Assembly (NCBI RefSeq): GCF_001870905.1
Contig: NZ_LNDC01000101.1
Location: 1-64,000, forward strand
Origin: Geitlerinema sp. PCC 9228
Lineage (GTDB): Bacteria; Cyanobacteriota; Cyanobacteriia; Cyanobacteriales; PCC-9228
Direction: 5' to 3'
DNA: 64,000 nucleotides
In this document: in pieces, positions 35,927-64,000 of the stretch
How positions within the stretch are numbered: position 1 is the first letter of the stretch
How the letters are laid out: every line of letters begins with the position of its first letter
Translations under genes and position numbers: made by a program
Notes under the pieces: model-generated
The model's input: only the letters and a program-made list of their open reading frames with translations
The model's database searches: none
What the model was told of the DNA's origin: nothing

Positions 35927-36011
35927 AGTTTAAGTTTTAGAGTATTTTAATAAAACGAAATATATTTGTAATTTATCTTAACAAAATAAGGCATCTTGTT
36001 TGGGAACTCCT

Positions 36012-38933
36012 ATGTACCGCCGTCGCTTTCCATTCCAAAATACAATTTTATGGCAACGTCCCTGGCGTTCTATTTTGATCCTATCCCTGCTCACCCTAGC
36101 CGCCTTTGCTGGTAATTATTTGAGCGTTCCCCTCTTTTTTGGCGTGGATTTGCTGTTTGGCAGCATTTTTGTGTTTCTGGTCGCCGCCATTTACGGAATT
36201 GGCTGGGGAAGCTTGGTAGCATTGATTGCCAGCAGCTATACATGGCAGTTGTGGGGACATCCCTACGCCATCATTATTTTCACCCTAGAAGCCGTATGTG
36301 TGGGATGGTGTTGGCAACGGGGTCGCCGCAACTTAGCCTTGGTGGATGCTTTGTACTGGTTGCTACTGGGAATGCCGCTGGTGTGGTTGTTTTATAGCGT
36401 GGTTATGGGAATGGAGACCACAGCAGCGTTGTTAATTTTGCTCAAACAGCCAGTTAACGGTATTTTTAACGCCTTAATTGCCACTCAGATATTATATGCC
36501 ATTCCCTCTCATTGGAGAGCGATCGCAGCTTTTGACAATCGCAACAACAATCGCTATTGGCAGAGTCGAGAAATCTCCTTTCAGGAAATCTTTTCCAGTG
36601 TCTTGGTTACCTCCGTCGTCTTAACAGTATTTTGTATCACCGTCTGGCAAGGACGTGCCACCCTCCCCAAAATAGAACAAAACGTCTACAATCGCCTGAG
36701 CCAGGTTTCCACCGACCTCCTAGAAACCGTCCGTTTGTGGCACCAACCCCACCAGCAACTCCTACAGGCAATCGCCGATACCGCAGCCTCCCACCGAATC
36801 AATAGCACACCAGTTCGGTCGCAAGTTCAACTATCCCACCAAGCATTTCCCGATTTTCTGAAAATCTATGTCACCGACGCCAACGGCAGAGCAACCATCT
36901 CAGTACCAGCTACCAACGAACGTGGGGAAACCATCATCGGTCAAAACTTTTCTGGTGAGAGCTCTTTCCAACAAGTCCGACAAACCAAAACCCCACAAAT
37001 CAGCGAAGTTCATCAAGATGCTGCCAACCAAACCCCCCATTTTGGGACAGCGATTCCCATCGTAACAAGCGATCGCTTTGCAGGAATGGTCTACGGTTCC
37101 ATCAGTATAGACACCTTAGAAGAAATTCTCAAAAACGTAACCCAAAACCAGAACAACCAAAGAACAACCAGTTCCACATCGCCGCAACTACACAACATAG
37201 AAATCCTATTGTTAGGAAAAGAAAACCAACCCCTAGCCAGCAACAGCTCCCAAGAACCCTTACAACCTTGGCAACCCACCAGAAAACAGCGACAAGTCCA
37301 CCGAGAACTTTACCAACAGTTCCCCGAACAAGACAATTTACCAGCCATGAAACAGTGGCGGCAATCTCGGTATATTTTACAAACACCAACAGTGGAAACG
37401 TTGCCTTGGAAATTCGTAGTACAAACGCCAGCATCTTCCGCCGTTGAAAACCTGCAAATCGTGTACATTCAACACCTAGCAGTCGTATTGGTGTGTGCAG
37501 CCGTCTCCTTACTCATAGCACCTTTAGCCAGCCGCAAACTAGTAGCTTCCTTAGACCAACTAGCAGAACTTACCCAAGATTTGCCAGAAAAACTATTTCA
37601 ACAGAGAACTATTTACTGGGACCAGTCCGACATTCGGGAAGTGAACTCCCTAATAGCCAACTTTCGACAAACGTCGGCGAGTTTGAGCAGTAAAATTTGG
37701 GAGATAGAACGAGCCAAAGTCACCTTAGAAGAACGAGTTACAGAACGCACCCAAGAACTATCCCACCTAAACGAACGCCTGCAGGATCGCATTCAAGAAG
37801 TGCAAGAATCAAAGGCTGCCTTGTTGGAAAGCGAAAAACGGTTTCGGCTGGTTGTGGAATACGCACCCATTGGCGTTGCGATGGTGGATAACACAGGAAC
37901 CCCTTTATTTGTCAATACTTGTTTGAGCAAAATGTTGGGCTATAGCAAAGAAGAATTGTGCCAAATGGATTTCACCCAGTTTACCTATAAAGAAGACATT
38001 GACTTGGATGTCCAACTTTATCAAGGGTTAATGGGTGGTCTGCGCGATAGCTATACCTTAGACAAACGATTTATCAACAAAACAGGGGAACTCATTTGGG
38101 GGGATTTGACTGTAGCTGCCGTACGTCGGGAAGAAGAAAATGCCACCTTTGCCGTAGCGATGGTGCGAGATGTAACCGAACGTCACCTGGCGGAACAAAA
38201 ACTGCGGGAACTTTCCGACCGTCTGGAGTTGGCTTTGCAAGCCGGTAAAATTGGTGTTTGGGAGTGGGATGTTACCAATGACATATTGTTTTGGGACGAT
38301 CGCATGTACGAATTGTTTGATATTCCCCCTTCGGTGCAACCGTTGAGCTATCAAACGTTTATCTCCCGGGTGCATCCCGACGACCGTTCCTACGTAGAGA
38401 CCACCTTACAAAACGCGATCGCTAATAGAGAAAAATTTGACTGCGAGTTTCGCATTGTACTCGACGACGGCACAATTCGTTTTATCAAAGGCGACAGCAT
38501 CGTTCGCTATGGGGAAAACCACAACGAACCCACCAGAACAATTGGGATTAACTGGGATTTAAGCGATCGCAAACACACCGAAGAACAACTGCGGCAGACC
38601 AACCGGGAACTCGAACGTGCCACCCGCCTCAAAGATGAGTTTCTGGCAAATATGAGCCACGAACTGCGAACTCCCCTCAACTCCATTTTGGGGATGTGCG
38701 AAGGATTACAAGAAGAGGTCTTTGGCACCCTCACCGACAAACAGCATAAATCTCTAACCACCATCGAACGCAGCGGCAAACATCTACTGGACTTAATTAA
38801 CGAAATTTTAGATTTATCCAAAATCGAATCGGGAAAACTAGAACTAGAGATTCAGGAGGTATCCTTATACGACATTTGCCAAAGCAGCTTAACCTTTGTA
38901 CGCCAGATGGCATACAAAAAAATATCCATCTGA
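36012..38933 (+). CDS. N-terminal part of a frameshifted membrane hybrid histidine kinase
   Basis: 973 residues from the ATG at 36012 (a TTG at 36000 is possible). About seven helices in residues 15-180 resemble a MASE-type sensor; another helix is at 190-215. A periplasmic Cache-like region (220-470), a helix near 480-500 and a HAMP-like linker follow. Two PAS domains occupy about 610-850 (VVEYAPIGVAMVDNTGTPLF; LQAGKIGVWEWDVTNDILF), then HisKA with ANMSHELRTPLNSI. The frame then runs into TGA at 38931 just after an A7 run (38916-38922). The HATPase and receivers continue in the next frame. Restoring one A joins both parts into a protein of about 1396 residues, so this is one gene. Confidence 0.88.
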   Translation: MYRRRFPFQNTILWQRPWRSILILSLLTLAAFAGNYLSVPLFFGVDLLFGSIFVFLVAAIYGIGWGSLVALIASSYTWQLWGHPYAIIIFTLEAVCVGWCWQRGRRNLALVDALYWLLLGMPLVWLFYSVVMGMETTAALLILLKQPVNGIFNALIATQILYAIPSHWRAIAAFDNRNNNRYWQSREISFQEIFSSVLVTSVVLTVFCITVWQGRATLPKIEQNVYNRLSQVSTDLLETVRLWHQPHQQLLQAIADTAASHRINSTPVRSQVQLSHQAFPDFLKIYVTDANGRATISVPATNERGETIIGQNFSGESSFQQVRQTKTPQISEVHQDAANQTPHFGTAIPIVTSDRFAGMVYGSISIDTLEEILKNVTQNQNNQRTTSSTSPQLHNIEILLLGKENQPLASNSSQEPLQPWQPTRKQRQVHRELYQQFPEQDNLPAMKQWRQSRYILQTPTVETLPWKFVVQTPASSAVENLQIVYIQHLAVVLVCAAVSLLIAPLASRKLVASLDQLAELTQDLPEKLFQQRTIYWDQSDIREVNSLIANFRQTSASLSSKIWEIERAKVTLEERVTERTQELSHLNERLQDRIQEVQESKAALLESEKRFRLVVEYAPIGVAMVDNTGTPLFVNTCLSKMLGYSKEELCQMDFTQFTYKEDIDLDVQLYQGLMGGLRDSYTLDKRFINKTGELIWGDLTVAAVRREEENATFAVAMVRDVTERHLAEQKLRELSDRLELALQAGKIGVWEWDVTNDILFWDDRMYELFDIPPSVQPLSYQTFISRVHPDDRSYVETTLQNAIANREKFDCEFRIVLDDGTIRFIKGDSIVRYGENHNEPTRTIGINWDLSDRKHTEEQLRQTNRELERATRLKDEFLANMSHELRTPLNSILGMCEGLQEEVFGTLTDKQHKSLTTIERSGKHLLDLINEILDLSKIESGKLELEIQEVSLYDICQSSLTFVRQMAYKKISI

Positions 38934-40201
38934 GCCAGCAAGTTCCCCAAAACATTGGCACCATCAGCGTTGACGAACGCCGGTTGCGGCAAATCTTGAT
39001 TAACCTACTTACCAACGCCGTGAAATTTACCCCCAACGGTGGCAGCGTTACCCTAGAAGTCATGCGACAACCACCCACCAACAGCGATTCCTGCGGCTAC
39101 GTTTCCCTGTCGGTGGTTGATACCGGCATTGGCATTCACCCAAACAACCTTAACAAGCTTTTTCAGGAGTTTGTACAAATTGACAGCAACCTCAACCGTC
39201 GCTACGGCGGTACGGGTTTGGGATTGTCGCTGGTACGTCGCCTGACGGAATTACACGGGGGAACGGTAACTGTAGACAGCGAACTCGGGGAAGGTACTCG
39301 CTTTACAGTACATTTGCCTTACGGAAACTGTTCGCTGGAACTGTCACCCACAACAGAAGAACCAGAAGCTGGCAAAGCAATTTCTACTCCCAACAACCGC
39401 CAAGTGTTACTGGTAGAAGATTCTACCCCGGCAGCCGACCACTTAACCCGCTATTTGCGGGAGATGGAATTGCAAGTGCATCGCTTGTCGGGAACCGAAG
39501 ATGTGCTACAAGTGGCATTGCAGGTGCAACCCAGTTTGATTGTTTTGGATATTCAACTGCCGCAGCGATCGGGTTGGGAAATTTTACAGCAGCTCAAAGA
39601 TAGCGAGGAAACCCAGAAAATCCCGGTTTTGGTGGTTTCGGTGGTAGACGATCGCTGCTGGGGATTGGCTTTGGGAGCTTCGGAATATTTGGTGAAGCCA
39701 GTGAACCGCAACCAATTCCAAACTGCATTGGCGAAGTTACGATTTTACAAACCTACTGCTCAAACGAATGGAAATGCGGCTGTTGCTACACCAGAAACAC
39801 CTGACGAATCTCAATCATCCCAACCGGTGATTTTGCTGGCGGAAGATGATTATGCCAACGTGAGTACGATTTCTAGTTATTTGGAGTTTCGCGGTTACCA
39901 ACTGCTGGTGGCTAGCGATGGCAAGGAGGCGTTGGCGATGGCTGCCGAACGCCACCCGGATTTGATTTTGATGGATGTGCAAATGCCTGATATGGATGGT
40001 TTGGAGGCAACCCGTCGCATTCGAGCAAATCCCACCATTGCTTCCATTCCTATTGTGGCTTTGACGGCACTGGCTATGTCTGGCGATCGCGAAAAATGTC
40101 TGGAAGCTGGTGCCAATGAATATATAGCCAAACCAGTTCGTTTAAAACAACTCTCGGAAACCATTCGGATGTTGCTGGCAAAATCTGCTGATTCTCGCTA
40201 G
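38876..40201 (+). CDS. C-terminal part of the frameshifted kinase: HATPase_c and two receiver domains
   Basis: The frame begins at an ATG at 38876 that overlaps the first part, but its meaningful content starts at about 38923 with NIHLSQQVPQNIGTISVDER, which matches KNIQLHKNIPDNLGTINADN in the upstream giant kinase. It encodes HATPase_c (NLLTNAVKFTPNGG; VVDTGIGIH; TGLGLSLVRRL), a first receiver (VLLVEDSTPAADHL; LIVLDIQLPQRSG) and a second receiver (VILLAEDDYANVS; LILMDVQMPDMDG). Both receivers keep their acceptor Asp. No Shine-Dalgarno precedes 38876, so independent translation is unlikely. The TAG stop directly abuts a MITE-like element at 40202. Confidence 0.85.
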   Translation: MPKQLNLCTPDGIQKNIHLSQQVPQNIGTISVDERRLRQILINLLTNAVKFTPNGGSVTLEVMRQPPTNSDSCGYVSLSVVDTGIGIHPNNLNKLFQEFVQIDSNLNRRYGGTGLGLSLVRRLTELHGGTVTVDSELGEGTRFTVHLPYGNCSLELSPTTEEPEAGKAISTPNNRQVLLVEDSTPAADHLTRYLREMELQVHRLSGTEDVLQVALQVQPSLIVLDIQLPQRSGWEILQQLKDSEETQKIPVLVVSVVDDRCWGLALGASEYLVKPVNRNQFQTALAKLRFYKPTAQTNGNAAVATPETPDESQSSQPVILLAEDDYANVSTISSYLEFRGYQLLVASDGKEALAMAAERHPDLILMDVQMPDMDGLEATRRIRANPTIASIPIVALTALAMSGDREKCLEAGANEYIAKPVRLKQLSETIRMLLAKSADSR

Positions 40202-43780: not shown

Positions 43781-44605
43781 CTATCGTTCGCTGCGGCGGC
43801 GAGTTAGAAACCACGTACCTGCCACCAAAGCCAAACCAGCCATGGATGTGGGTTCCGGTACCGGTTCTATAGGCTCGACAGCACCAACCATCGCCACCAT
43901 GTCGTTGTAGTCGCGGTCGGAGTTTTCTACCAGCAAATCTTCAAAGGCTACGATAAATTGGTTATCGTTGAACAAACCAGCTTCGTAGTTGGGAAGTTGC
44001 ATTTGGGTTTGATTGTTGCCTTGATAGATAACCGCTTGCGGCGAACCGTTGGGATTGAGGGAATCGTCGGAGTAGTAGGTGGCGTTTTCTGCGGCTACAT
44101 TTAGGAAAAATCCAAATTGATTGCCGAATCCTTTTTTGGTGGTGATTTCTACCTCGGAGTTGGAGGAGACGGCATCCCAAATCTTCAGATCGCCGTTTTC
44201 CAAAAAGCTAAAGAAAGACTGACTGCTTGAGGTGGCGTTGCCGTCAAACAAAACGGCTTTTTCCCCAGTTTTGGCACTGTAAATACCAAATTGGTTTGTA
44301 GAAGCGTAGTCGGCAACTTCTGCCATCAAAGTAGAACTAGAATTGCCAATGGCGGTACTGGTAAAGAGATCGTATGGGGTTTGGTCTTGTTTGGTATCAA
44401 TATTGGGACCAGAAACGGTCATGCCATCTAAGATGTTTTGTAGGGAGTGTTCTTCTCCATCCCAGGAATGGCCGAAACTGACCGGACGCATGTTGGCTGC
44501 CAAACTGGGGTCCATGCCGACAGACAAACTGCCGAAAAACGCGATCGCCATCCCTGCGGTAGGGAAGAGACGTTTGCGAAACTTGCGAAAATTGGTTGCG
44601 AACAT
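43781..44605 (-). CDS. Secreted DUF4114 protein with PEP-CTERM sorting tail
   Basis: 274 residues starting at the ATG at 44605, which follows GAGG; an upstream frame to 44659 is open. A signal peptide (GMAIAFFGSLSVGMDPSLAA) precedes a beta-rich domain. The DUF4114 signature DRDYNDMVAMVG is near residue 235. The tail PVPEPTSMAGLALVAGTWFL followed by TRRRSER is a textbook PEP-CTERM motif: VPEP, membrane helix, Arg cluster. Such proteins are exported and processed by exosortase and are linked to exopolysaccharide. The exosortase gene is elsewhere. The giant S8 protein at 56442 carries two related DUF4114-like regions. Confidence 0.88.
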   Translation of the reverse strand: MFATNFRKFRKRLFPTAGMAIAFFGSLSVGMDPSLAANMRPVSFGHSWDGEEHSLQNILDGMTVSGPNIDTKQDQTPYDLFTSTAIGNSSSTLMAEVADYASTNQFGIYSAKTGEKAVLFDGNATSSSQSFFSFLENGDLKIWDAVSSNSEVEITTKKGFGNQFGFFLNVAAENATYYSDDSLNPNGSPQAVIYQGNNQTQMQLPNYEAGLFNDNQFIVAFEDLLVENSDRDYNDMVAMVGAVEPIEPVPEPTSMAGLALVAGTWFLTRRRSER

Positions 44606-44772
44606 AAGCGATATACCTCGTATGGATAATTTCTCGTTGTCAAAAGCAGCAGCGAGCAACCTTTCAATTTGGTTTGGTGGTAATTTTTTATGGCAGTTGC
44701 TCCACCGATAGCTGCTTTTCTAAGGTTCTCTCTGGGGGAAAAAGCCAAAATTACGTGAATTTACGGATTTTT

Positions 44773-45624: not shown

Positions 45625-46368
45625 ATGCAGAGCCGTCAAAACCGTTTCCTTGATGAGGAACTCCAACAACTCGCGATCGCAGCTCAAAACCACCCACCCA
45701 AAAGTCCCCAGCGACGAAAATATTTGAGACACTTGATTGAAAAAACTCAAATGTCGGGTCGGCTGCGACGGCGTTTTCCCTATCAGGATGTTCCCTTCGC
45801 AGAAGAGATCTACCACGAAGCTTTGCAAGACCTGTGGACCTTTGTCTCTCAGAACATCGAACAATATGACCCCCAACGAGGTCCGTTGATTCGATGGTTC
45901 AACTACCTTTTAGCAAAACGCTTTTTCCCCAGAGCTATTTCCCGCGTGATAGAACGCAACCAACAGAAAATCGGTCAGCTAACCATTTACTTTGAATCTT
46001 TGGAAACAGTTAGTTATAACGGGGAAGACAACTATGGAGATGAACTTCAACCCAGCAAGAAAAGTAAGCGACTCCTGGAGGCGATCCAAAAGAACCGACC
46101 CTTACTATCCGAGATGGTGAAAGAATGCCTGTATGTAGATCCCGATCGCATCTTTACCGACAAACACGTAAAGCACTGTCCCCAAGCCAATTTCCGCAAC
46201 ATTGCCCTGTGGCGATTGGAAGGGAGAAAGTGGCAGGAAATCGCCAACGAACTGGGAATTCAGATATCCACCCTCAGCGATTTTTACCAACGTGCCATGC
46301 CGAAAATGTCCTTTCGCATCCGGCAGTATTTGCAAAACTGGGATTTTTATAGCGATTGGCATAAGTAA
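45625..46368 (+). CDS. Sigma-70-family RNA polymerase sigma-like factor
   Basis: 247 residues. Residues 55-115 resemble sigma region 2 (EEIYHEALQDLWTFVSQNIE; RGPLIRWFNYLLAKRF), and residues 195-235 form a region-4-type helix-turn-helix (ALWRLEGRKWQEIANELGIQ; ISTLSDFYQRAMPKM). Region 2 is divergent and lacks an obvious -10-recognition block, so it belongs with the ECF-like cyanobacterial sigma factors or a relative. It is the first gene of a rightward set (DUF1822, CHAT-TPR, DUF928-like) with short gaps. It probably regulates them or envelope genes; no anti-sigma of known type is adjacent, which makes the DUF1822 protein a candidate partner. Confidence 0.75.
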   Translation: MQSRQNRFLDEELQQLAIAAQNHPPKSPQRRKYLRHLIEKTQMSGRLRRRFPYQDVPFAEEIYHEALQDLWTFVSQNIEQYDPQRGPLIRWFNYLLAKRFFPRAISRVIERNQQKIGQLTIYFESLETVSYNGEDNYGDELQPSKKSKRLLEAIQKNRPLLSEMVKECLYVDPDRIFTDKHVKHCPQANFRNIALWRLEGRKWQEIANELGIQISTLSDFYQRAMPKMSFRIRQYLQNWDFYSDWHK

Positions 46369-46430
46369 TTTTGTATCCATGGTTCCTCGAAAAAGTGTAC
46401 TTGTTGAAAATGAATAATGAGAGTTTTCCT

Positions 46431-47423
46431 ATGAAACCATTACCAGAATCTCTACCCTTTACCGTACATTTAACCAGCCAAATGCACCAGCAGGCTTGGC
46501 AATTAGCAGCAGAAGTTTCGGATGCAGAAAAACGCCAACAAATATATTTCAATTTGTTAGCCGTACAAGCAGTCAATTTCTACTGCAAGTGCATCGATAT
46601 TCCCACCGCTCAAAATTCCCGAGACAGCCAAGATGCCATCTGCCAAATCTTACTTGATGTTGCCGATTTACAGCTAGAAAATCTGGGAAAAATTGAATGC
46701 CGTCCGATTTTACCCAACGAGGCAGCAGTGCGCGTTCCGGCAGAGGTTTGGGAAAATCGAATTGGTTACATTGCCGTCCGTTTGGATGCCTCTTTACGGG
46801 AAGCCAGTTTGATTGGTTTCTTGCCAAATGCCGATCGCGAGGAAATTCCGATCGAACAGTGGGAATCTTTGGATGATTTTTTAGATTGTCTGGAAGAGTT
46901 GGAACGGCAAGCAGAGATGCAGCCAGAAGATAGTTCACCCAGCAAACCACCAGTAAAATTAAGTAAATGGCTGCAAAATATTTTTGATGTTGGTTGGGAA
47001 ACGGTAGAAAATTTGTTGGACCCGCAAGTTTTAGAGCCTTCTTTCCAATTTCGCCATGCCAAAACTGAGGTGGAAACGGAAACCTCTGTGGTAGATCGTT
47101 CCGCATCTGGGATTGTGCGTGGTAAAGTGTTACAGCTCGATGCTGGCAGCGACGCGACCAACATTGCTTTGCTGGTTTGGTTGCAGGCAACCTCAGACCA
47201 TCGCATGGATGTGCGCGTGGAAATTCACGGAACCCAAGGAAATTTTTATTTGCCGAAAGATTTGCATGTTAGTATTTTAGATGAGAGTTTGGCGACGGTG
47301 ATGCAGGCAGAAGCAAGAAGTACGCGCAAACTGGAATTTGAATTTACTGGTGATTTTGGAGATCGATTTTACGTACGTACTGCTTGGAAAGGAGCAGCTG
47401 CTGTGGAAGCCTTTATCATTTAA
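46431..47423 (+). CDS. DUF1822 family protein
   Basis: 330 residues from the ATG at 46431, which has GAGAG upstream; the frame is open to a TTG at 46371 and another ATG at 46410. The DUF1822 hallmark is an N-terminal region with QQIYFNLLAVQAVNFYCKCI and later VGYIAVRLDASLREASLIGF-like text (here IGYIAVRLDASLREASLIGF). The C-terminal 100 residues (IALLVWLQATSDHRMDVRVE; FEFTGDFGDRFYVRTAW) form a probable beta-sandwich. The family is almost restricted to cyanobacteria and has no known function. It stands between the sigma-like factor and the CHAT gene. No membrane segment is visible. Confidence 0.85.
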   Translation: MKPLPESLPFTVHLTSQMHQQAWQLAAEVSDAEKRQQIYFNLLAVQAVNFYCKCIDIPTAQNSRDSQDAICQILLDVADLQLENLGKIECRPILPNEAAVRVPAEVWENRIGYIAVRLDASLREASLIGFLPNADREEIPIEQWESLDDFLDCLEELERQAEMQPEDSSPSKPPVKLSKWLQNIFDVGWETVENLLDPQVLEPSFQFRHAKTEVETETSVVDRSASGIVRGKVLQLDAGSDATNIALLVWLQATSDHRMDVRVEIHGTQGNFYLPKDLHVSILDESLATVMQAEARSTRKLEFEFTGDFGDRFYVRTAWKGAAAVEAFII

Positions 47424-47456
47424 GATAGTTTCTTTCGGTTTTGTGAGGGCTTTTTT

Positions 47457-49289
47457 ATGCACAATACAGAAAAATTGGTGGTTTTGGAACTGTTTGGCGA
47501 TTTGCCACAGCGGGGATTTGAGGTAACCTTGGAAATTAGCAACGAAGGCGATCGCGCCAGTGCCAAATTTTTCGGCAAGCTACCTGCCAATCACAACTTA
47601 GCTGATTTCATCTACTACCACTGGGAACAAGAATATCGACCTTTGGGAATTCCTGGGAACTATCGGGTTTTAGAAGCCAAAAAAATCCGCCACTACGGTT
47701 CCATTCAAAGCTGTAAAGAATCGGCCCATCGATTGCGCGATCGCTTTTTAAGCTGGTTGCAAGCAGAAGAATTTCAACATCTAGACACGCGACTGCGGGA
47801 ATTTTTATCGCCAGAAGATAGCATTCGATTTTTAATCCGCAGTAACGATGCTAGTTTGTACAAATTGCCTTGGCAAGAGTGGGATTTTTTCCAACGCTAT
47901 CCCTATGCAGGATATTCGTTTAGCGATACGCAATTTAGCAATAGTCAAAAATCGCCAGCCGCATCGACAGCAGCCAAAGTTCGCATTTTAGTAATTCTCG
48001 GTCACGACGAGGGAATTGATATCAAACGCGATCGGCAATTGTTTGACGAACTTCCCAACGCGGATGTTACTTTTCTAAGGCAACCCAAACGCCAAGAAAT
48101 CGGCGATCGCTTGTGGGAACAACCCTGGGATATTATCTTTTTTGCCGGTCACGGTAGCAGCGAAGGAGACACCGGCAAAATTTATATCAATCCCGAGGAT
48201 AGTTTGGACATTGCCGAACTGTGGCATGGTTTGCGAAAAGCGGTCAAGCAAGGATTGCAAGTGGCTATTTTTAATTCTTGCGACGGGTTGGCTTTACCGC
48301 AACAACTCGACGACCCAAGTATTCCGCAAATGATTGTCATGCGGGATATGATTCCCGACCAAGTGGCCCATCAATTTTTAAAATATTTTCTCCAATCATT
48401 TTCAGAAGGCAATTCGTTCTATTTGGCAACGCGGGAAGCAAAAGAAAGGCTCAAAGGTTTAGAAGATGAGTTACCCTGTGCCAGTTGGTTGCCGGTAATT
48501 TTCCAAAATCCCACCGCCACACCACCCACCTGGGAAAGTTTGGTCGGTTCTTCATCTACAAAATCGACTCCCATCGCACCTCCCAAGCCAAATAAGCGAA
48601 ACAAGCGAATTTTGGGATCTATTTTGGGGGGAGTTGGTTTGCTTGTTGGAACTATTACTGCCTCTATGGGGTTGTCTTATGTGTTTCAAGTGAAAGCAAT
48701 TCAAAAATATGAAGCAGACGAGAAAAAAACTGCCAAAACATATCTAAAACTGGCCTTATTTTTTAATCCAAGAAACGATGCTGCCCAAGGCTTAAGAGGG
48801 AATTTATATGAAGATTACGCCTATGCTGTAGATCGAGCGATTAGAAAATATCAAGAAGTGTTAGACCAGAGCGATAACCCGGTTGCTTGTAATAATTTGG
48901 CTAGGTTATATATTAGAAAAGGTTCTTTTCAACAAGCTGAACATCTCCTGTACGCTTATTGCATGCATTTAACAGACAAAGATTCTCCTGGTCGCCTTTA
49001 CATTCACAAAAATTTAGGTTGGTCTTTTTGGGAACAGGGAGAATACCAGCAAGCGGAAAATCAACTTCGACAAGCCATGCATATCGATCGGGAACATGTG
49101 GAAGATAGCAATGCGGGAGTATACTGTTTGTTAGCTCAAATCATGGAAAAAGAAGGGAAGACTTCTCAGGAAACCATGGATTTTTGGCACCTTTGCCAAG
49201 AATATGCCGACCCAGATATTCCAGAAGAAAGAAAATGGCAACAACAAGCTCGCGAAATACTTGCTTGGGAGGATTCTAATGATAAATGA
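47457..49289 (+). CDS. CHAT (caspase-like) protease with membrane helix and C-terminal TPR region
   Basis: 610 residues. After an N-terminal region of about 150 residues of unknown type, the CHAT domain (175-360) keeps the catalytic dyad: His232 in FFAGHGSSEGD and Cys275 in IFNSCDGLALP. A basic stretch (KPNKRNKR) precedes one membrane helix (ILGSILGGVGLLVGTITASM, about 385-405). TPR-like units (425-595) follow. With no signal peptide and positive residues before the helix, I predict CHAT in the cytosol and TPRs outside. GAGGG stands before the ATG. The gene overlaps the DUF928-like start by 11 bases. Role: a proteolytic switch, by analogy with TPR-CHAT proteases; inferred. Confidence 0.85.
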   Translation: MHNTEKLVVLELFGDLPQRGFEVTLEISNEGDRASAKFFGKLPANHNLADFIYYHWEQEYRPLGIPGNYRVLEAKKIRHYGSIQSCKESAHRLRDRFLSWLQAEEFQHLDTRLREFLSPEDSIRFLIRSNDASLYKLPWQEWDFFQRYPYAGYSFSDTQFSNSQKSPAASTAAKVRILVILGHDEGIDIKRDRQLFDELPNADVTFLRQPKRQEIGDRLWEQPWDIIFFAGHGSSEGDTGKIYINPEDSLDIAELWHGLRKAVKQGLQVAIFNSCDGLALPQQLDDPSIPQMIVMRDMIPDQVAHQFLKYFLQSFSEGNSFYLATREAKERLKGLEDELPCASWLPVIFQNPTATPPTWESLVGSSSTKSTPIAPPKPNKRNKRILGSILGGVGLLVGTITASMGLSYVFQVKAIQKYEADEKKTAKTYLKLALFFNPRNDAAQGLRGNLYEDYAYAVDRAIRKYQEVLDQSDNPVACNNLARLYIRKGSFQQAEHLLYAYCMHLTDKDSPGRLYIHKNLGWSFWEQGEYQQAENQLRQAMHIDREHVEDSNAGVYCLLAQIMEKEGKTSQETMDFWHLCQEYADPDIPEERKWQQQAREILAWEDSNDK

Positions 49290-50004
49290 TAAATTATTTC
49301 TTCGTTGTGGGTATAGTGCGGTTTTCCTTTGGGGAATTTTACTCAATTTCTCTCCAAGTGCGATCGCAGAAACTCGCTTGTTTCCAGAATCCATACAAAC
49401 CGCATCGCTCAACCAATGGTTAATAGCAGAAACTTGCGATAAAGATGAAGGATGCTATCGCGACCCACCGGAAAGTGCGGATGTTCCCCATATTATTGCT
49501 CCTACCTTTAGAACCAGCGTTTACAGCTTGCAACCAACTCTGTTATGGCGACCGGTTCTTGGGGTGAGCTACTATACTTTATATATTGAAGGCATTTCTT
49601 CAGATTTTCAATGGGAAGACGTCGTTGGTGGTCAAGATTATTGGAAAGCGTATGACGGATCTCCTTTGCAACCAGGAAATCGATACCGATTCTATATTGA
49701 AGCTAGCAACGGCAAATCTTCTCGCAAAATTCAATTTTTTGTCTTATCGGAAGAAAAAAGACAGCAAATAGAAACGGATATCGAACAGGTCAAACAAAAC
49801 GTAACTGGAGAAGTCGAACAAACCATCGCGATCGCGCAAATGTTGGTCGATCGATACCAATTAAAATTTGAGGCAATCGATCGCTTAGAAGGCTTACTTG
49901 CTAGCGGTATTAACAATCCCCAAGCTTGTAACTTATTAGGAAATTTATATCAAGAAATGGGACTCACAGATATGGCTGGTAGTGTTTGCGATCGCACCAA
50001 TTAA
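49279..50004 (+). CDS. Secreted DUF928-like protein
   Basis: 241 residues from the ATG at 49279 (GGGAGGA five bases before it). The first 26 residues form a signal peptide (SAVFLWGILLNFSPSAIAET). The middle resembles DUF928 (PTLLWRPVLGVSYYTLYIEG: the 'wysPAv' type region; YRFYIEASNGKS), a fibronectin-like beta domain, and the C-terminal 70 residues are helical (GLLASGINNPQACNLLGNLYQ), TPR-like. DUF928 proteins accompany CHAT/TPR genes in cyanobacteria and have no proven role. Translation is likely coupled to the CHAT gene through the overlap ATGATAAATGA. Confidence 0.75.
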   Translation: MINDKLFLRCGYSAVFLWGILLNFSPSAIAETRLFPESIQTASLNQWLIAETCDKDEGCYRDPPESADVPHIIAPTFRTSVYSLQPTLLWRPVLGVSYYTLYIEGISSDFQWEDVVGGQDYWKAYDGSPLQPGNRYRFYIEASNGKSSRKIQFFVLSEEKRQQIETDIEQVKQNVTGEVEQTIAIAQMLVDRYQLKFEAIDRLEGLLASGINNPQACNLLGNLYQEMGLTDMAGSVCDRTN

Positions 50005-50348: not shown

Positions 50349-52895
50349 CTACAACCAATTGCCAACCAAAACAAAGGGTGCCCAAAAGTGGGGTCTGGTA
50401 TATTCTTCTCCATATTCTCCTTTTAGTAAAGCCACTTGAGCTTGTTGTAAAAGCCTAGCCTTGCTTGTACTTTCATTTTCCTGCAATGTCGTTTTTAAAG
50501 AACGATAAAAGTGTTCCATAAGATTAACCGTGGACCTATCATTAACCACCCAAGAACTAGCAATAATACTACGTGCTCTTGCTTGCAATGCCGTTCCCGC
50601 CATGCCTAGCGTAGTGCGATCGTTTCCTTGAGCTGTTTGACAAGCACTGAGAACAAGCAACTCAATGTCGTTCAATCGAGTGGGGTCATTGATGCGTAGG
50701 AGGCGACCCAAATCTTCAATTTTGATTTTCCCATCCCAGGCAAAAATAAACGTATTCTCTGCTTGAGAAGAAAACTTACCGTGGGTGGCTATGTGTACAA
50801 TCGGGAAAAAGGAATTATTCACCTTCTCATTCAGATTGTTGGTGGTAAAATCCTGATTGAGCAAGGGCTCTGTTTGTCTGGGAAACTGGGACTCTATATT
50901 TTGTATTTCTTCTTTTACGTAAGGCAAATCGTTCCAATTATCATTTTCTAAATTGGAAAAGTTACTGCGACCGTTGCCTAAAATATGTAAATTATCCCAA
51001 GTAATTCGCTGGGGTTCTAACAACCTCAAACTGGGAGTAACAGAAATGGGGTATTTTTCAATAAAATATTTTTCTCCATCGTGAAGAGCTGCCACTGGCA
51101 AATCTTGCAATACACTATCCAAAACAAAAACAAGCGTTTTTACTTTTGTCTGGCTGGCAGCAATTTTTTCATCGGCTTCTTGGAAAAACCATTGATAAGT
51201 TCCTTGCAAAATACTCTGTGCTTGTTCGTTGAAAGTACCGCCTTTTCTGGGAGGTTGTGCCAAAAATCCCTTGAGAAATTCTATATCATCAAGCAAACTC
51301 GATGGCGATCGCTCGTAGTGGTACAAAGGTTCTTCGGGTAAATCCAGAATAACCTCTACCCGTTGCGGTGATTCTCGATTGGGTAAAACCATTGCATAGA
51401 AAACACCGGCATGGGGGTCTATCTTCTCTAACTCAACCTCTTTGAGTTCGGCACATCGGTCTCGAAAGAAATCATTTAACTCGGCAACTTGCAAAGCATC
51501 AATGACTTGGCGAGCTTGTTCGAGGCGTTTTTCCCCGGGAGATTCTTCCTTTAACAGCAAATCGACCAATTCTCGGTAAACCGGTTCGATTTCTTCGCGA
51601 AAATTAAATTGAACGTCTTCATTGAGAATCGCCAAATCTTGACGAATATCCTGTAGAGAATTATAAGCAGCTGTATAAGCTTCGATCGCTTTTTTGCGAT
51701 TACCTTGTAGAATTTGCAATCTCCCCTGTTGCCACTGCCAATGATAAGCAATATCCCAAGCTTGCCTTGACTGAGCAAGACTCATGGCTCGATTGGTTAA
51801 CTCTTCAGCATCAGACCATTGCTTCTGAAGTTCGTAAAGTTGCCCTAAATATCCCAAAGCATAGGAAAACAACCGAGGATTTCTAATTTCTTTACCATGA
51901 CCTTTAGCATTTTGAGCAGCGATGGATATTAATTTGGCAATTTCTTGCCAGGATGCCAACACATCGTTTTTTTGAAACTGGGATTGGGAGTGACTGCAAC
52001 GGCGAACAATGGGAGGTTGGTAGATATTGCCTTCTTCACCAACAGCCACTGTATTATCCGTTTGCAGTTTCAAACAAGTGAGGGTGCGAGCAAAATCGAT
52101 TCTAGCTGCGATCGCGCGATCGCTTGTAGGAGATAACGCTTCCAACTGATTGCGAACCGTTTGTTGCAAGTTTTTCACTTGGCTGGAAGTTATCGCGTTT
52201 TGCCTATCAAATTCCGTCGGTTTTTCAGCAAAGAGATTCAACAGATTGAGTCTGGCTTGTAGGTAAATTAGATGATTTTTCTGGGTTGCCGTTTCTTGCA
52301 AAGCCTGCTGGTAATTGGCAACTGCCTGTTGATAGGTATTTTGTGCGTCATCAATGTTCTCTAAAGAAAGTTCTCGAAAAGCGATCGCGCGTCGTGTATT
52401 TCCCAAACTTACCCAATTGGCAGCAATTTCTTTTTGCCAATCCATGGTTTGGCTTTTTCCCAAACTGTATTGCAAAATTTGTTCTGAATTATTCAACGCA
52501 CCAGTGACTCGTAAAAGGTCGCCTAAAGTTCTCCAAGCTTCCAGTTCCGTTCGCGATAGATTTTTAGTAAAATAATTTGGAAGTTGTTCGCTAGCTTCGT
52601 CGCGTAAAATTGCATTAAAAAGGTCAAAGTCAATTTGCAAAGCCGCCATCAGTTTTTTGGTTGCATAATGGTAGTGACCTCTGGCTTGCAAATCTCGTAC
52701 TTCTTGCAATGTTGGTTGGGTAGAATTTTCCCGATCGGCGATCGCGGTTATCACTGAATTGTTAAACTGAGGAAGATGCGCGATCGCTTGCGATGAACCA
52801 TATCGAACCGCAGGTGGCACACAAATACACAACAGTGCCGTCACGAAACTCAAAACCAGCCATTTCCCGCGATGCATCCATTTTGGCTTTGCCAT
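50349..52895 (-). CDS. Exported TPR-CHAT (caspase-like) protein
   Basis: 848 residues. A signal peptide or anchor (VLSFVTALLCICVPPAVRYG) is followed by helical TPR-like units over about 55-470 and a C-terminal CHAT domain (560-848). The caspase-type dyad is present: His705 in VHIATHGKF and Cys752 in VLSACQTAQGND. Conserved CHAT landmarks include GMAGTALQARARSIIASSW and WAPFVLVGNW at the end. It would act in the periplasm or outer compartment. AGGAGA stands before the ATG, and the exoprotein gene ends only 15 bases upstream, so they share a transcript. Possible job: processing or surveillance of that exoprotein. Confidence 0.9.
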   Translation of the reverse strand: MAKPKWMHRGKWLVLSFVTALLCICVPPAVRYGSSQAIAHLPQFNNSVITAIADRENSTQPTLQEVRDLQARGHYHYATKKLMAALQIDFDLFNAILRDEASEQLPNYFTKNLSRTELEAWRTLGDLLRVTGALNNSEQILQYSLGKSQTMDWQKEIAANWVSLGNTRRAIAFRELSLENIDDAQNTYQQAVANYQQALQETATQKNHLIYLQARLNLLNLFAEKPTEFDRQNAITSSQVKNLQQTVRNQLEALSPTSDRAIAARIDFARTLTCLKLQTDNTVAVGEEGNIYQPPIVRRCSHSQSQFQKNDVLASWQEIAKLISIAAQNAKGHGKEIRNPRLFSYALGYLGQLYELQKQWSDAEELTNRAMSLAQSRQAWDIAYHWQWQQGRLQILQGNRKKAIEAYTAAYNSLQDIRQDLAILNEDVQFNFREEIEPVYRELVDLLLKEESPGEKRLEQARQVIDALQVAELNDFFRDRCAELKEVELEKIDPHAGVFYAMVLPNRESPQRVEVILDLPEEPLYHYERSPSSLLDDIEFLKGFLAQPPRKGGTFNEQAQSILQGTYQWFFQEADEKIAASQTKVKTLVFVLDSVLQDLPVAALHDGEKYFIEKYPISVTPSLRLLEPQRITWDNLHILGNGRSNFSNLENDNWNDLPYVKEEIQNIESQFPRQTEPLLNQDFTTNNLNEKVNNSFFPIVHIATHGKFSSQAENTFIFAWDGKIKIEDLGRLLRINDPTRLNDIELLVLSACQTAQGNDRTTLGMAGTALQARARSIIASSWVVNDRSTVNLMEHFYRSLKTTLQENESTSKARLLQQAQVALLKGEYGEEYTRPHFWAPFVLVGNWL

Positions 52896-52910: not shown

Positions 52911-55607
52911 TTAGCGATCGGAATTTTCTTCGCTGTCAGTGCTGCAATCTGGTCGTTCCAAGCGCAACCAATACCCGTAAGGAATTATATGACGGGGATT
53001 TATCACCAGTTCTACCGTACCATCGTCCCGTCGCACCCAACCTTGTGCCTCTTGGATTTTGGCTGAAGTTGTCGCTGCCATCTCCTGGTTGATGCTTTCT
53101 CTGGGAGTCGGCGGCAAACCACCCCGTCTGGCATTGACAAACTCCGTTTCCTGACCGGCGATTTTGCAAGGATTTGCTGGCACGTCTGGCAGTGGCGGTA
53201 CGGTGGGTAGGACCAACCCTTGCGTGGGATCGAACTCTGGCGTATTAATTTCCACAATACCGCTAAATTTGGGTCCAAGTTCGGAGGAAGCAGTAATATC
53301 GCTTTGGGGAGTTTGTTGGTTGCGAAATTCCGTACCGTAAATTCCTTGGGTATTGATAACGACCCGACCACCAAAATTATTCACAGCATCGGCAGTAATA
53401 TCGCTGTTTTCCAACGCTACTAACGTATCGGTATCTACTTCAATGTTGCCGCCTTGAGAATCCCCTTGAGCGTCGGTGTTGATACGGCTAATTTCTCGCA
53501 AGCGCAAGTCGCTACTGTCGAGCATAATATTACCGCGATCGCCAGATATGGTTGTGGCTTCCAAAATCCCTTGTTCTAAATGCAGTTCGTCGGCGTTGAC
53601 AATCAAATTTCCAGCATTGCCAATGTTCGATGCTTCTATTGCCGGGATTTCTGCATTTTCTCGCGGTTGCGTACCGCTTACCGAAACTTTACCGCCATTG
53701 CGAATGCTCAAACGTTCGGTTGCAATTTCTAGATTTCCTGCCGGACCTACATTTTGCGTTTGAGTAAACAAACCGCTAGAAGTATTTTGCAGATTGGTTC
53801 CTTCAACCTCTAAAAGTTCCTCAACGCGAATGAAGGCTTTTCCTCCCTCTCCTTCGCTAGCAGCGATCGCAGAAACTTGTCCTCCTCCCAGAATACTCAT
53901 ACGTTCTGCATTAATTTCTAGAGTACCGCCTTTTCCCGAACCTAAGGTAGCACTGGATAGCAAAGCACTATTTGTGACGAGCAGTTGTTCTGTGTCAATA
54001 GTCAAATTGCCACTCTTTCCAGAAGCTTCTGTTTGAGTAAAAATACCACTAGGAACATCGCGATCGCTTCTCCCCGATACTTGTACGAGTTCAGAAGCAC
54101 GAACGTGAAGGTCACCAGCATTGCCACTTGCAAGAGTTATCGTACTAACCTGAGCGCCACCTTGTGCCAACATCCGCTGGGTGTGGATAGTAATATTACC
54201 GCCATTGCCTTTAGAGTTGGCTTCAGCATTAGAAAATAAGCCGCTAGAAAACCGCGACTGTATAGCGGTTCCAGTTAGTTCTATAGAGTTCGCATCTATG
54301 GTAATATCGCCGCTTTCCCCTAAACCAGAAGTTGCCGTTGTTATTTGCGCACCTTCGCGCAAAATCAACCGATTGGCACGAACGTTAATATGGCCACCAC
54401 CACTTACATTATTTGTATTAGCAAAAAAACCACTTCCGGAAGCCAAAGCTTCACTTATTAAATAACCTTGTAGTGCAATCGTACCTTCAGCACGTACAGT
54501 TATATTACCTGCTTGTCCTTGGCTGTTACCTAAAGCAGAAACTGATACTTGTCCGCCATTTTGAAAGGTGAGGTTGTTAACTTCTATCTCAACATCACCG
54601 GCATTTCCCGATCCTTCTGTTTCAGCCAGAATGCCGCTAGGAAACTGACCGTTGGCAGTGGTGCCGCGCAATTCTAGCGTTTCCGTAGCATCCACTGTTA
54701 CAGTTCCACCCGATCCGGGACCACGATTCGTCGCTTGAATCAGAGAACCATCAGTTATTTCTAAATTACGACCTGATAGGTGAATGGCACCGCCATCCGC
54801 ACCACTGGTTTCAATTGCGCTCCCTTGAGCAATATTGATATCGAGAAAGCCGTTTGTGCGTTCGTAGCTAACTCCCCACCCATTAGCCAGCCTATCCAAA
54901 CCAACCGTCGTTTGACTGGCTACACTACCCAACTCAATACGCCCTTCTGGTGCTACTATAGCTGTGCCGGCTTCTAGGGAAATATTTCCTCCCAACAAAC
55001 CAATTGTTTGCGTAGGAGACACTTGTAATAAAGAACTTTGAGCTTGAATGTTGCCTGGATTCTTGCCGTATTGCAAACCAACGGGTACGCTTACTGTTAG
55101 CAATGGTTTTGAATGCGTTTCCTGAGCGCGAAACTGAGTACCATCTGCAAAATGAATGCTTTCTGCAGTGCTAGCCAAAAAAGAACCGCCAATATTGAGG
55201 CGAGCGTTTGGACCAAAGGAAATGCCATTGGGATTGAGCAAAACCAGACTGGCGGCATGGTTGGCACTTAAAACACCATTAATATTAGAAACAGAGTCGC
55301 CGGTAATACGGCTAAAAATTGTGCGTATTTGTGGTTGGTTTTGAAAAATGGCTGTGGTTCCAGCTGGAACGGAGAACGTTTCAAAACTGTGAAATAAATG
55401 TTGGCCTGCTTGCGTTCCTCCTTCAATAGAGATGGTATTCTCTTGTGTAGTTACGGTAGACGGTTGAGATAAAGTTGTATCTGGAACCACTTGTGCGATG
55501 CTACAAGTTGGAAAGAAACCAATTACAGTGACAGCGCTACAAGATAACCCTGCAATCAAAGAGGTTCTATATGTATGTAGCCGATCGCTGATGGTCGTAA
55601 AAAGCAT
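52911..55607 (-). CDS. Filamentous hemagglutinin-type exoprotein (two-partner secretion)
   Basis: 898 residues from the ATG at 55607, chosen because it gives a signal peptide (LIAGLSCSAVTVIGFFPTCS); the frame is open to 55685. The TPS (haemagg_act) domain has HSFETFSVPAGTTAIFQNQP, NINGVLSANHAASLVLLNPN and GISFGPNARLNIGGSFLAST. A long beta-helix of similar units (GNAGDLHVRASELVQV; GGTLEINAERMSILGGGQ) fills 200-790. The C-terminal region has NPCKIAGQE..F and RRGGLPPTPRE, common in cyanobacterial members. It should be secreted through a TpsB barrel, which is not in the window. It is probably an adhesin or surface fibre. Confidence 0.9.
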   Translation of the reverse strand: MLFTTISDRLHTYRTSLIAGLSCSAVTVIGFFPTCSIAQVVPDTTLSQPSTVTTQENTISIEGGTQAGQHLFHSFETFSVPAGTTAIFQNQPQIRTIFSRITGDSVSNINGVLSANHAASLVLLNPNGISFGPNARLNIGGSFLASTAESIHFADGTQFRAQETHSKPLLTVSVPVGLQYGKNPGNIQAQSSLLQVSPTQTIGLLGGNISLEAGTAIVAPEGRIELGSVASQTTVGLDRLANGWGVSYERTNGFLDINIAQGSAIETSGADGGAIHLSGRNLEITDGSLIQATNRGPGSGGTVTVDATETLELRGTTANGQFPSGILAETEGSGNAGDVEIEVNNLTFQNGGQVSVSALGNSQGQAGNITVRAEGTIALQGYLISEALASGSGFFANTNNVSGGGHINVRANRLILREGAQITTATSGLGESGDITIDANSIELTGTAIQSRFSSGLFSNAEANSKGNGGNITIHTQRMLAQGGAQVSTITLASGNAGDLHVRASELVQVSGRSDRDVPSGIFTQTEASGKSGNLTIDTEQLLVTNSALLSSATLGSGKGGTLEINAERMSILGGGQVSAIAASEGEGGKAFIRVEELLEVEGTNLQNTSSGLFTQTQNVGPAGNLEIATERLSIRNGGKVSVSGTQPRENAEIPAIEASNIGNAGNLIVNADELHLEQGILEATTISGDRGNIMLDSSDLRLREISRINTDAQGDSQGGNIEVDTDTLVALENSDITADAVNNFGGRVVINTQGIYGTEFRNQQTPQSDITASSELGPKFSGIVEINTPEFDPTQGLVLPTVPPLPDVPANPCKIAGQETEFVNARRGGLPPTPRESINQEMAATTSAKIQEAQGWVRRDDGTVELVINPRHIIPYGYWLRLERPDCSTDSEENSDR

Positions 55608-55767
55608 TCTGGGATATCGATGTCTATACGAAAATGTTATTTGTGTTTGTAGGAACACAGATGCTTGGCTGGCACCAAACCACATTAAGGATAAATGAAT
55701 TAAGCAAATAAATCAAGAACCGCAATTTATATCTATATAGAGGCGATTCGCGAATCGCCTCTACAGC

Positions 55768-56441: not shown

Positions 56442-59400
56442 TTAGCGGAAATACATCGTCCAGGCATCATTTTTGCCTTGATGCGTTCCACCAAAATTAC
56501 TCAACGTATCTCCTGCCAAGAAAAGACCAGCACTACTCATAGCCAAATCTTGTGCTTTCTCGGTATTGGCAGTGCCGGCTTGTTCCCACCATTGCAAAGC
56601 ACCATCGTGGTTGTATCGAGCGATAAACACATCTTCTTTCCCGGCGGGTGTATCGGCAACTTGACCTCGGGTATGACCGGTTAAGTAAACATTACCCAAC
56701 TCATCCGCCGCTACACCGGTAGCGCGATCGCTTTCTGGGGTACCCAAAATACGCCTCCAATTTAAATTGCCATCAGCCTGAAACTGAGCGACCCATGCAT
56801 CGCCTTTACCAAAATAAGTTCCTCCTAAATCCGAGCGATCGCCATGAATAGCCCCCCACCAAGCGTCATAGTCGGCCATCCAATCGTCATTATCGCCATC
56901 AAAGGTTTCTCCCATCCAGCCTTTGGTACTACCTGACAGGTAGATATCGCTATGAGCGTTGGCACTAATGCTTTGCGACTCATCCCAAGCCACAGTTCCT
57001 AATTGCTTGGTCCATTGTTGGTTGCCATTGATATCGTACTTGGAAATCCAAGCATCCGTATCATCTGCCTGGCTATCGGCTAGTTGCTTTTTCTCATTGG
57101 CAAGGGATGCCAACTGACCTTCCGTTTGTCCGGTGAGGTAGACAGAACCATTGCCATCTAAAGTAATGTCATTGGCTTCATCCCAAGCCTTGCTGCCTAA
57201 CTGCCGTACCCAAGTTTGGTTGCCGTTGGTGTCGTATTTTGCCAGCCAAGCATCCGCCGAACTACCTGGATTTTCCGCCGCTAGATTGCCATAGGTATAG
57301 CCACTGATGTAAGCTTGACCGCTGGCATCCACTGCAATGCTATTGCTAGAGAGTTCGTATAGGGAACCAGACTTATCGTAAATCGACGTATCTAACTCTC
57401 GTTTCCACTGGAGATTCCCCCCATTGTCGTACTTAGCAATCCAAGCGTGGCGTCCGGAACTGTCAGCTGCCAAGTTGCCATCCGTCCAACCAGTAGCATA
57501 AATATTGCCAGCAGCATCTACATCAACATCTGTGGCTTCGTCAAAACCAGAACTTCCCAACTGTTGTTGCCATTGCAAGTTTTGATTGGCATCGTACTTA
57601 GCCACAAACGCATCCCAACTACCGGCATTATTCCCGGCTAGGTCGCCAGAGGTACGACCAGCTACGTAGGAGTTGCCAGCATCATCTGCTGCTATGCCGT
57701 TGTTATATTCCCTTTCGGAACTACCGAGTTGCGTTTTCCCTTTTTGCGAGGGAATTTCATTATCGTAAACGTATACGCTGTCATTAAAATGGTCTACAGC
57801 ATAGTTGGGCTTTTCTCTAATGAAGGGTTCTATATACTCAGTAATTTCTATTTCATTGTCATCGATGGGGTCGATCTGAATTTTATAAGTATCTTCACCA
57901 GCAGGAATCGTTATGGGATTGTCAACTTTTTGATAATCCGTACCATCATTTTCTGTAAAATGCCGCCAAGAATCGTTAAACCACAAATCGACTTCTAAAG
58001 GTTCGCTGAGATCGCCACTGCGAGTGATGGTAAATTCGCCCGGATCGCCATACTCAGAAGCTTTGTTGTCTGTAGCTTCCAGCGAAACGGTATTTTTGTC
58101 ATCGTTGTCCCAAATAGTTATAGGGATGGTGGGGTTCTCGCCCAGGGTATATGAAGGATGTGGCTCTGCTTTAAATTTTAAGGTTTCTTCTCCTTCTACT
58201 TCATCATCATCAATGGGATAAAAAGATAAGTAATTCTCTTGCTTGTGAGCTGGTAGTGTCATTTGTCCGGATAGTTCTTGAAAGTCTTTCCCATTTTCCG
58301 CTTCTCCAGGAAATGAATAGTAAAAGGTAATATCTTCTTCCAAACTGCCAGTCCTTCGAATCAAGAAATGCTCTGCATTTCCAGCTTCTGATGTATAAGC
58401 GTCTGTATGGTAAATATGGGGTTGGCCAGTCCACCAATCACCTAGAAAATGAAGTTGCGGCGGTTCGTTATCCCAAATGGTGACCACATCCATGTTGTCT
58501 GCCCCAATTTCATAGCCATCTTTTTCTTCTAGCTTCAATCTGACTGTTTCCGGCCATTCTGGTTCTCCGTCTTCTAGAGGTTGGATGGGTAGCGTTACAG
58601 AAGATTCCCCTTGGGGAATGGTAATGCTTTTTTCATCGATGGTCTTGTAATCCGTTCCATTGCTAGCTTGGGGACGAGACCAGTGATGTTCCCCTTCGAT
58701 GGTGTAATTCACCGTCAAGGGATTGTGGGTATTGCCGGTACGACTAAAGGTAAACTCACCAGGATCTCCTCCTTCGTTTGCATCCGCATCGGTGGCTTCT
58801 ATAGTCACTGTCGGTTTGCTGCCATACAGATTTAACTGCCACGAGTTCCAGGTTCCATCTTCCTTAAAAGAGTTCTGAGACACCTCGTCTGCAACTCGCA
58901 ACTCCCATTCTCCCTGAGAAGTTTCTCCCCAGTGCGAGGCACTCGTAAATATCCACTTGTTGTAATCTTCTGCTGTCGATGAATTGGGGGTGGCTAGTAA
59001 CGATTCCGTTTCTATGGTTTCTCCCGTTTCTGGATCGGTGTAAGTATGTACCAAAGAAACTTCTAAATCACCTTTGACAGGATGGGAAGCATCAAACATC
59101 ACTTCCGCCGATTCCACAGTGATGTCTTCTTCCATCTGGATGCTATCGTTGAGTTGCTGTCCGTTGTTTGAAATCGTTTGGTTTGGGTGCCTTCCTCCAG
59201 AAGACAGCTTCACTTCCGTACCTACAGGAGTCCAGTCTTGAGCCGCTTCTACGGCAGCTTCGGCATCAATCACCCCAAACCCATAACCGGGATGGAACTG
59301 GTAGCCACCACCGTTGGTTATCCAACCGCTATCTGTTTGCTCTGGGTTGCTGGCTTCTGGTTGCTGGGCAGTTTCAATTAGAATATGCTGTACGTCGCGC

Positions 59401-63296: not shown

Positions 63297-64000
63297 TGGT
63301 AGACTCCTGGTTTTCGGTAGACAACACCCAAAGCGAGGGAGAGAACATCCCCATGGCTGGGAAAAGCGATCGCATCCTGGTTGCGAACCGGATCGATATC
63401 GATGTTTTCCGCCTCTATAAGATCTCTCAAGCAAATAGCGTCCGTTTTACGGAAATGGAACAATTTTTTTGAAAGAAATTTTCTATTTTCCAATAGACCA
63501 GCGGTTCGTTAACCCCTCGTTCGCCAGAATCTATTGGTTGGTACGTTGAAAACCCCTAGTTTTGACCTCTTTTGGCAGCAAATCGCTCCTTTTTACAAGG
63601 GGTTCTTGCCAGAATCGGCAGCAATCCCCATTATTGAAATCAAGAAAAACAAGCTCAGACTTGGACAATAAAAACTATAAAACGAAAAAACTTGTTTGAA
63701 AAGTAGTCATTGGTAACTTTGCAAAAACTTTAAAAACCGGTCGTTTTCGTAAATTTTTGCTAAAGGAGCAGAATCAAACAGCTGTTTTCTTGGGAGTATA
63801 AATTCCCAATTCCTTATATTGCAAGGGTTTTGGAGATTCTCCTAACGTCAGAGCGAGGAAATATTTTGTCGTTCTGTCGGTGCCTGGCAAGAGCTTCCAT
63901 TCCCTTCAGGGGGGTTCTGCTGGGAAAGGTTTACCAAGATAAAAATGATTTTTATATGATTTTGTTAATTTTTTAGAAGTTTTCCGTAAAAATAGGGGAT
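63297..64000. other. Upstream region of the S8 gene, no gene found
   Basis: About 700 bases with no supportable coding frame. It is AT-rich toward the window end and should include the leftward promoter of the S8 gene; I see no strong paired hexamers. The next gene must lie beyond the window. Confidence 0.5.

Follow-up and report, generated by a model that had tools for sequence, protein, structure and literature searches.

The 64,000-nucleotide stretch of Geitlerinema sp. PCC 9228 DNA analysed here (the window) contains a set of four forward-strand genes at positions 45,625 to 50,004. These genes encode a divergent extracytoplasmic function (ECF)-like sigma factor, a DUF1822 protein, a membrane CHAT protease, and a protein with at best a remote likeness to DUF928. 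They may form a protease-gated sigma switch, to which a probability of about 0.45 is assigned. An envelope signal would activate the CHAT protease, the protease would cleave the DUF1822 protein, and the cleavage would release the sigma factor. Binding, inhibition, cleavage, the signal, and the regulon are inferred steps of this scheme. It is favoured by a natural gene fusion, the way in which the domains of DUF1822 vary with the type of protease, the invariant catalytic residues, and the exchangeable sensors. The earlier note on this DNA had listed four open reading frames (ORFs) with gaps of 62, 33, and -11 bases, and these coordinates were correct. The features of the set are as follows.

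45625-46368, + strand: gene 1, divergent ECF-like sigma factor, 247 amino acids (aa) (TIGR02937 below cut-off, AlphaFold2 (AF2) model, Foldseek, position)
46431-47423, + strand: gene 2, DUF1822 protein (PF08852), 330 aa, proposed switch or adaptor (Pfam, AF2)
46458-46919, + strand: DUF1822 N-terminal α+β domain, aa 10-163, proposed sigma partner (AF2)
46920-47105, + strand: DUF1822 linker, aa 164-225, with the W189 helix and R208 (low predicted local distance difference test score (pLDDT), conservation)
47112-47417, + strand: DUF1822 C-terminal β-sandwich, aa 228-329, proposed docking domain for EACC2-CHAT (AF2)
47457-49289, + strand: gene 3, EACC2-like N-terminal domain, CHAT protease, one transmembrane (TM) segment, and predicted periplasmic TPRs, 610 aa (Pfam CHAT and TPR)
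48150-48152, + strand: codon of the catalytic His232 (His in 89/89 homologues)
48279-48281, + strand: codon of the catalytic Cys275 (Cys in 89/89 homologues)
48609-48671, + strand: predicted TM segment, from about aa 385, preceded by KRNKR (hydrophobicity scan, sequence)
49279-50004, + strand: gene 4, putative secreted DUF928-like protein, 241 aa (position in the DUF928 slot, homologue L107)

The domain content of DUF1822 proteins follows the type of protease encoded nearby. DUF1822 variants were classed by Pfam coverage, and neighbouring TPR-CHAT and caspase-C14 genes were counted within the fetched neighbourhoods. An EACC2-CHAT gene directly follows 77 of the 111 DUF1822 genes with the C-terminal domain, whereas it follows none of the 16 N-domain-only genes (p = 6e-8; this and the other p-values are optimistic, as rows from the same genome or genus are not statistically independent). 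Conversely, a TPR-CHAT protein is encoded nearby in 13/16 N-domain-only loci, but in only 1/83 EACC2-CHAT loci (p = 1e-12). The same sigma subfamily lies upstream of 6/16 N-domain-only genes at the strict cut-off. A third variant of DUF1822, of about 390 aa, follows a sigma factor of 390-430 aa; a caspase-C14 gene is found nearby in 4/9 of these loci, versus 0/83. Fusions are also informative. At locus L102, a sigma factor is naturally fused to the DUF1822 C-terminal domain, 6 bases before an EACC2-CHAT gene; an iterated search started with its N-terminal part collects hardly anything but sigma genes from this slot, some of which exceed the sigma cut-offs. The C-terminal domain also ends NB-ARC ATPases at L084 (1062-3026, before an EACC2-CHAT gene), L132 (4913-6859), and L133 (4394-6331). 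The last two have no EACC2-CHAT gene next door, and the L132 protein has a LuxR-type helix-turn-helix match. Because domain content tracks protease type and the C-terminal domain occurs in these fusions, the comparison suggests that the N-terminal domain pairs with the sigma factor and the C-terminal domain with EACC2-CHAT. As a separate observation, a gene of about 400-425 aa with no Pfam match recurs downstream of N-domain-only DUF1822 genes (L038 4889-6166, - strand; L137; L160; L163).

The order of the genes is widely conserved. In a survey of 40 genomes of the same order, 101 EACC2-CHAT genes (homologues of gene 3) were found, and DUF1822 lies directly upstream on the same strand in 78 of them. 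DUF1822 comes immediately after 51 of the 57 sigma genes of the window's type. Loci without this type usually have a longer sigma gene at the upstream position, and several of these sigma factors pass sigma cut-offs. Of the 78 DUF1822-EACC2-CHAT pairs for which the upstream sequence is long enough, 63 are preceded by a recognisable sigma gene. Five DUF1822 genes occur in the window genome, and an EACC2-CHAT gene stands immediately downstream of four. The four-gene arrangement is not due to chance, since many genomes show the same order and adjacency. A lack of gene-order conservation had been set beforehand as a result that would refute the proposal, and the order is kept across the surveyed genomes.

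The three core proteins also covary. Over 39 triads, the Spearman correlations between sequence distances are 0.53 for sigma and DUF1822, 0.62 for DUF1822 and EACC2-CHAT, and 0.40 for sigma and EACC2-CHAT; the largest value among 1000 permutations was 0.37. Five genomes (G003, G004, G008, G033, and G037, two pairs of which are relatives) contain an orphan sigma-DUF1822 pair together with an orphan TPR-type EACC2-CHAT gene (L123-L125, L128, L129, L131, L145, L172-L174). This distribution hints that the parts of one system have been separated yet remain paired. In trees of the orphan pairs and orphan proteases, support on the protease side was weak (SH-aLRT 80-82), and the sigma and DUF1822 sides were unresolved.

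The full length of gene 2 is covered by Pfam DUF1822 (E = 2.2e-64), in agreement with the earlier note. The AF2 model (11 sequences, pLDDT 78.8; all structure models are of single chains) contains an N-terminal α+β domain, a flexible stretch, and a C-terminal β-sandwich. The pLDDT falls below 50 at residues 167-170 and 199-225. DUF1822 was described as a TPR protein by Kaur et al. 2021 (PMC8195603), whereas it is modelled here as two non-TPR domains; gene 2 has no Pfam TPR match, and its moderate-confidence AF2 model has no TPR array. Two linker residues stand out. W189 in the linker helix is 95% conserved. R208 (codon 47052-47054) is Arg in 93% of the 69 filled rows (of 98 sequences); it lies in an LAFxFR context and within the lowest-confidence part of the linker (199-225). 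This Arg is hypothesized from the alignment to be the P1 residue of DUF1822 cleavage. An alternative candidate cut site might be the R-x-K at the start of the C-terminal domain (R230 75%, K232 85%).

Gene 3 contains a CHAT domain (PF12770, residues 158-333) that scores 32.7 bits against a cut-off of 24, and TPRs at about residues 458-546. The alignment of the EACC2 and CHAT domains is conserved over 15 members, while the C-termini vary. By the positive-inside rule, the KRNKR before the TM segment predicts that the N-terminus is cytosolic. The prior description of a membrane CHAT protein with intact His232 and Cys275 held, with the CHAT domain above its cut-off, a hydrophobic segment near residue 385, and both residues kept in 89/89 homologues. 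Gene 3 fits the description of the EACC2-caspase of Kaur et al. 2021, an equation based on its layout and neighbours. A search of the PDB sequences for EACC2-CHAT relatives gave nothing significant.

In Pfam, gene 1 hits no sigma model and no family above cut-off. TIGR02937 matches it weakly (23.7 bits, cut-off 42.9). The AF2 model (8 sequences, pLDDT 79) shows two helical domains, with sigma2-like helices at aa 2-116 and sigma4-like helices at aa 161-245, joined by a flexible or disordered linker (117-155). The top 50 Foldseek matches in the PDB are sigma factors and sigma-containing chains of transcription complexes, including E. coli sigmaE/RseA, AlgU/MucA, SigH, SigL, WhiG, and SigA, although each match is weak (E = 0.066 or worse). 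The label of ECF-like sigma was kept because of the two-domain fold and because the structural matches are nearly all sigma factors. Gene 1 is therefore accepted, on its model, as a divergent ECF-like sigma factor with sigma2 and sigma4 domains, and the sigma-factor assignment of the earlier note stands in this form. A sub-threshold Pfam "Death" match to gene 1 was treated as chance.

The sensor end of the system is variable. Among 86 protease homologues, Pfam identifies CHASE2 in the C-termini of 49 and nSTAND1-WD40 in 13; TPRs occur in the window protein and some others. Sensor classes (CHASE2/TPR versus others) were assigned by home-made profiles, which differ slightly from the Pfam counts. 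A DUF928 gene adjoins 35/51 CHASE2/TPR (membrane-sensor) versions, versus 3/38 of the others (p = 5e-9). A convergent gene for a secreted-type CHAT protein lies beside 25/51 CHASE2/TPR loci, versus 2/38 of the others (p = 5e-6). The window has such a convergent gene, and a two-partner-secretion (TPS) adhesin gene lies directly upstream of it. Because DUF928 and the convergent CHAT gene track membrane sensors, the secreted partners support an envelope signal for the TPR version in the window.

Gene 4 was claimed earlier as a secreted DUF928 protein, and this holds in part. Its N-terminus has a signal-peptide-like stretch, and it occupies a slot in which 35 of 45 genes across loci match DUF928. 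However, gene 4 itself has no match to Pfam DUF928 (PF06051) or to any other Pfam family above cut-off. A weak match to DUF928 (E = 0.0014, 18.9 bits, cut-off 26) is found in its homologue L107, and the profile-profile match of gene 4 to DUF928 is also weak. Gene 4 may at best be a remote DUF928-like protein.

Taken together, these observations could be accommodated in one mechanism. The DUF1822 N-terminal domain would hold the ECF-like sigma factor, and the C-terminal β-sandwich would dock on the membrane protein at its EACC2-CHAT portion, as the matching of domain and protease suggests. The predicted periplasmic TPRs, probably aided by the secreted DUF928-like protein, would sense an envelope signal. 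This would activate the CHAT Cys protease on the cytosolic side, which would cut the DUF1822 linker, possibly after R208, and the freed sigma factor would transcribe its regulon. The protease-controlled sigma switch proposed in the earlier note is partly supported: the conserved order, the fusion, the DUF1822/protease matching, the invariant dyad, and the exchange of sensors agree with it, while the DUF928 label is remote. Somewhat more tentatively, DUF1822 proteins may form a cyanobacteria-wide class of switches. The N-terminal domain would hold a sigma factor, and the rest of the protein would be matched to EACC2-CHAT, TPR-CHAT, or caspase C14 proteases with envelope (CHASE2, TPR) or cytosolic (STAND-WD40) sensors.

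Several points weigh against the protease-gated switch. Among the 101 EACC2-CHAT genes, 23 have no adjacent DUF1822, and co-inheritance of an operon alone could also yield correlated distances. The linker Arg motif is present in 69/98 DUF1822 sequences and absent in about 30%, including those with HEAT-type linkers. The models of genes 1 and 2 come from only 8 and 11 sequences, respectively, and for neither does any PDB match reach E = 0.001. Moreover, the only proposal published for the EACC2-caspase group (Kaur et al. 2021, eLife, PMC8195603) is that these proteins are activated as autopeptidases, with sigma as the output. In such a scheme, the CHAT domain cuts its own protein, the freed EACC2-CHAT or sensor fragment acts, and an uncut DUF1822 recruits or positions the sigma factor. 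The constancy of the EACC2 and CHAT module beside variable ends would agree with this. It is nevertheless considered unlikely, as it leaves unexplained both the change of DUF1822 domain content with protease type and the fusions of the C-terminal domain to sigma and NB-ARC proteins.

The direction of regulation is not visible in the sequence. The same genomic evidence would fit a DUF1822 that acts as a positive partner, holding the sigma factor at the membrane protease or at RNA polymerase, with the CHAT protease removing sigma or DUF1822 to end the response. Proteolysis is activating in the CalpL/CalpT/CalpS system. It is also activating in the type III-E CRISPR CASP system (PMC10028731), and the positive role is regarded as more doubtful still. 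It is rather less probable again that the system is a death or defence executor, in which the activated CHAT protease would cut many proteins like a metacaspase and the sigma factor would merely autoregulate or tune the operon. Clan-CD proteases and the STAND-WD40 versions, the latter seen in the 13/86 nSTAND1-WD40 homologues, recall death and immunity systems (PMC8195603). But envelope sensors (CHASE2/TPR) and secreted partners predominate, and a PADLOC scan of the four proteins matched no defence model.

A consensus scan of the operon for promoters and terminators gave nothing above shuffled sequences. The genes downstream, which bear on the sensor end, are as follows.

50349-52895, - strand: convergent secreted-type CHAT-TPR protein (recurrent neighbour of membrane-sensor versions)
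52911-55685, - strand: TPS adhesin-like protein (Pfam TPS, E = 1.5e-61)

Other features of the window were also observed. The overlapping ORFs at 36000-38933 and 38876-40201 (+ strand) resemble one hybrid histidine kinase with a frameshift near 38900, which may be a sequencing error or a real break. At 43781-44659 (- strand), a DUF4114 protein (Pfam above cut-off) has a C-terminal PEP-CTERM-like signal just below cut-off. A 2330-aa ORF at 56442-63434 (- strand), on the same strand as the TPS and CHAT genes and upstream of them, contains by eye a subtilase-like stretch and repetitive acidic segments.

CHAT proteases are numerous in cyanobacterial genomes (21 matches in the window genome), without known substrates. 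Should DUF1822 prove to be the substrate as well as an inhibitor of sigma, a single testable logic would apply to dozens of orphan proteases, sensors, and ECF-like sigma factors. The core set of EACC2-caspase, ECF sigma factor, and DUF1822 is known since 2021. Kaur et al. (PMC8195603) described a constant EACC2 and caspase protein with variable C-termini, with an ECF sigma factor and DUF1822 in most neighbourhoods lacking TRADD-N. The window shares the EACC2-caspase layout and the adjacent DUF1822 and ECF-like sigma genes. Its copy differs in having a TM segment, TPRs, and a DUF928-like neighbour, and DUF1822 domain content is here found to follow protease type. What looks new is how DUF1822 is built and how it is matched to three types of protease, together with the natural fusion and the partners that go with particular sensors.

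Cleavage of an inhibitor by a protease also frees a sigma factor in CalpL/CalpT/CalpS of type III CRISPR, where CalpL is a Lon-SAVED protease. The likeness lies in the protease-to-sigma link; the Lon protease and the inhibitor are unrelated to the present proteins, and the signal is a nucleotide messenger. In the sigmaE-RseA-DegS cascade, an envelope signal leads to proteolysis of the anti-sigma factor (PMC10028731). There the membrane protein is the anti-sigma factor; in the present set it is the protease, and DUF1822 lacks a TM segment. In the type III-E CRISPR CASP system, CASP-sigma is inhibited by Csx30, which the TPR-CHAT protease Csx29 cleaves (PMC10028731). Both systems encode together a CHAT protease, a two-domain intermediate protein with a flexible linker, and an ECF-like sigma factor. 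The analogy of architecture drawn in the earlier note thus stands, but a DUF1822-Csx30 link was not found: a DUF1822 profile search of PDB sequences gave nothing significant and no Csx30 chain at E = 5, and the 50 best fold matches of DUF1822 do not include Csx30. The resemblance may be one of analogous logic. No CRISPR components are present among the genes examined at the locus, and a membrane EACC2-CHAT protein with a periplasmic sensor replaces the RNA-guided complex. The N-domain-only DUF1822 variants with TPR-CHAT are architecturally nearer to type III-E CASP than the window set. If the proposed switch is true, the CRISPR CASP circuit would be one case of a wider protease-to-sigma theme.

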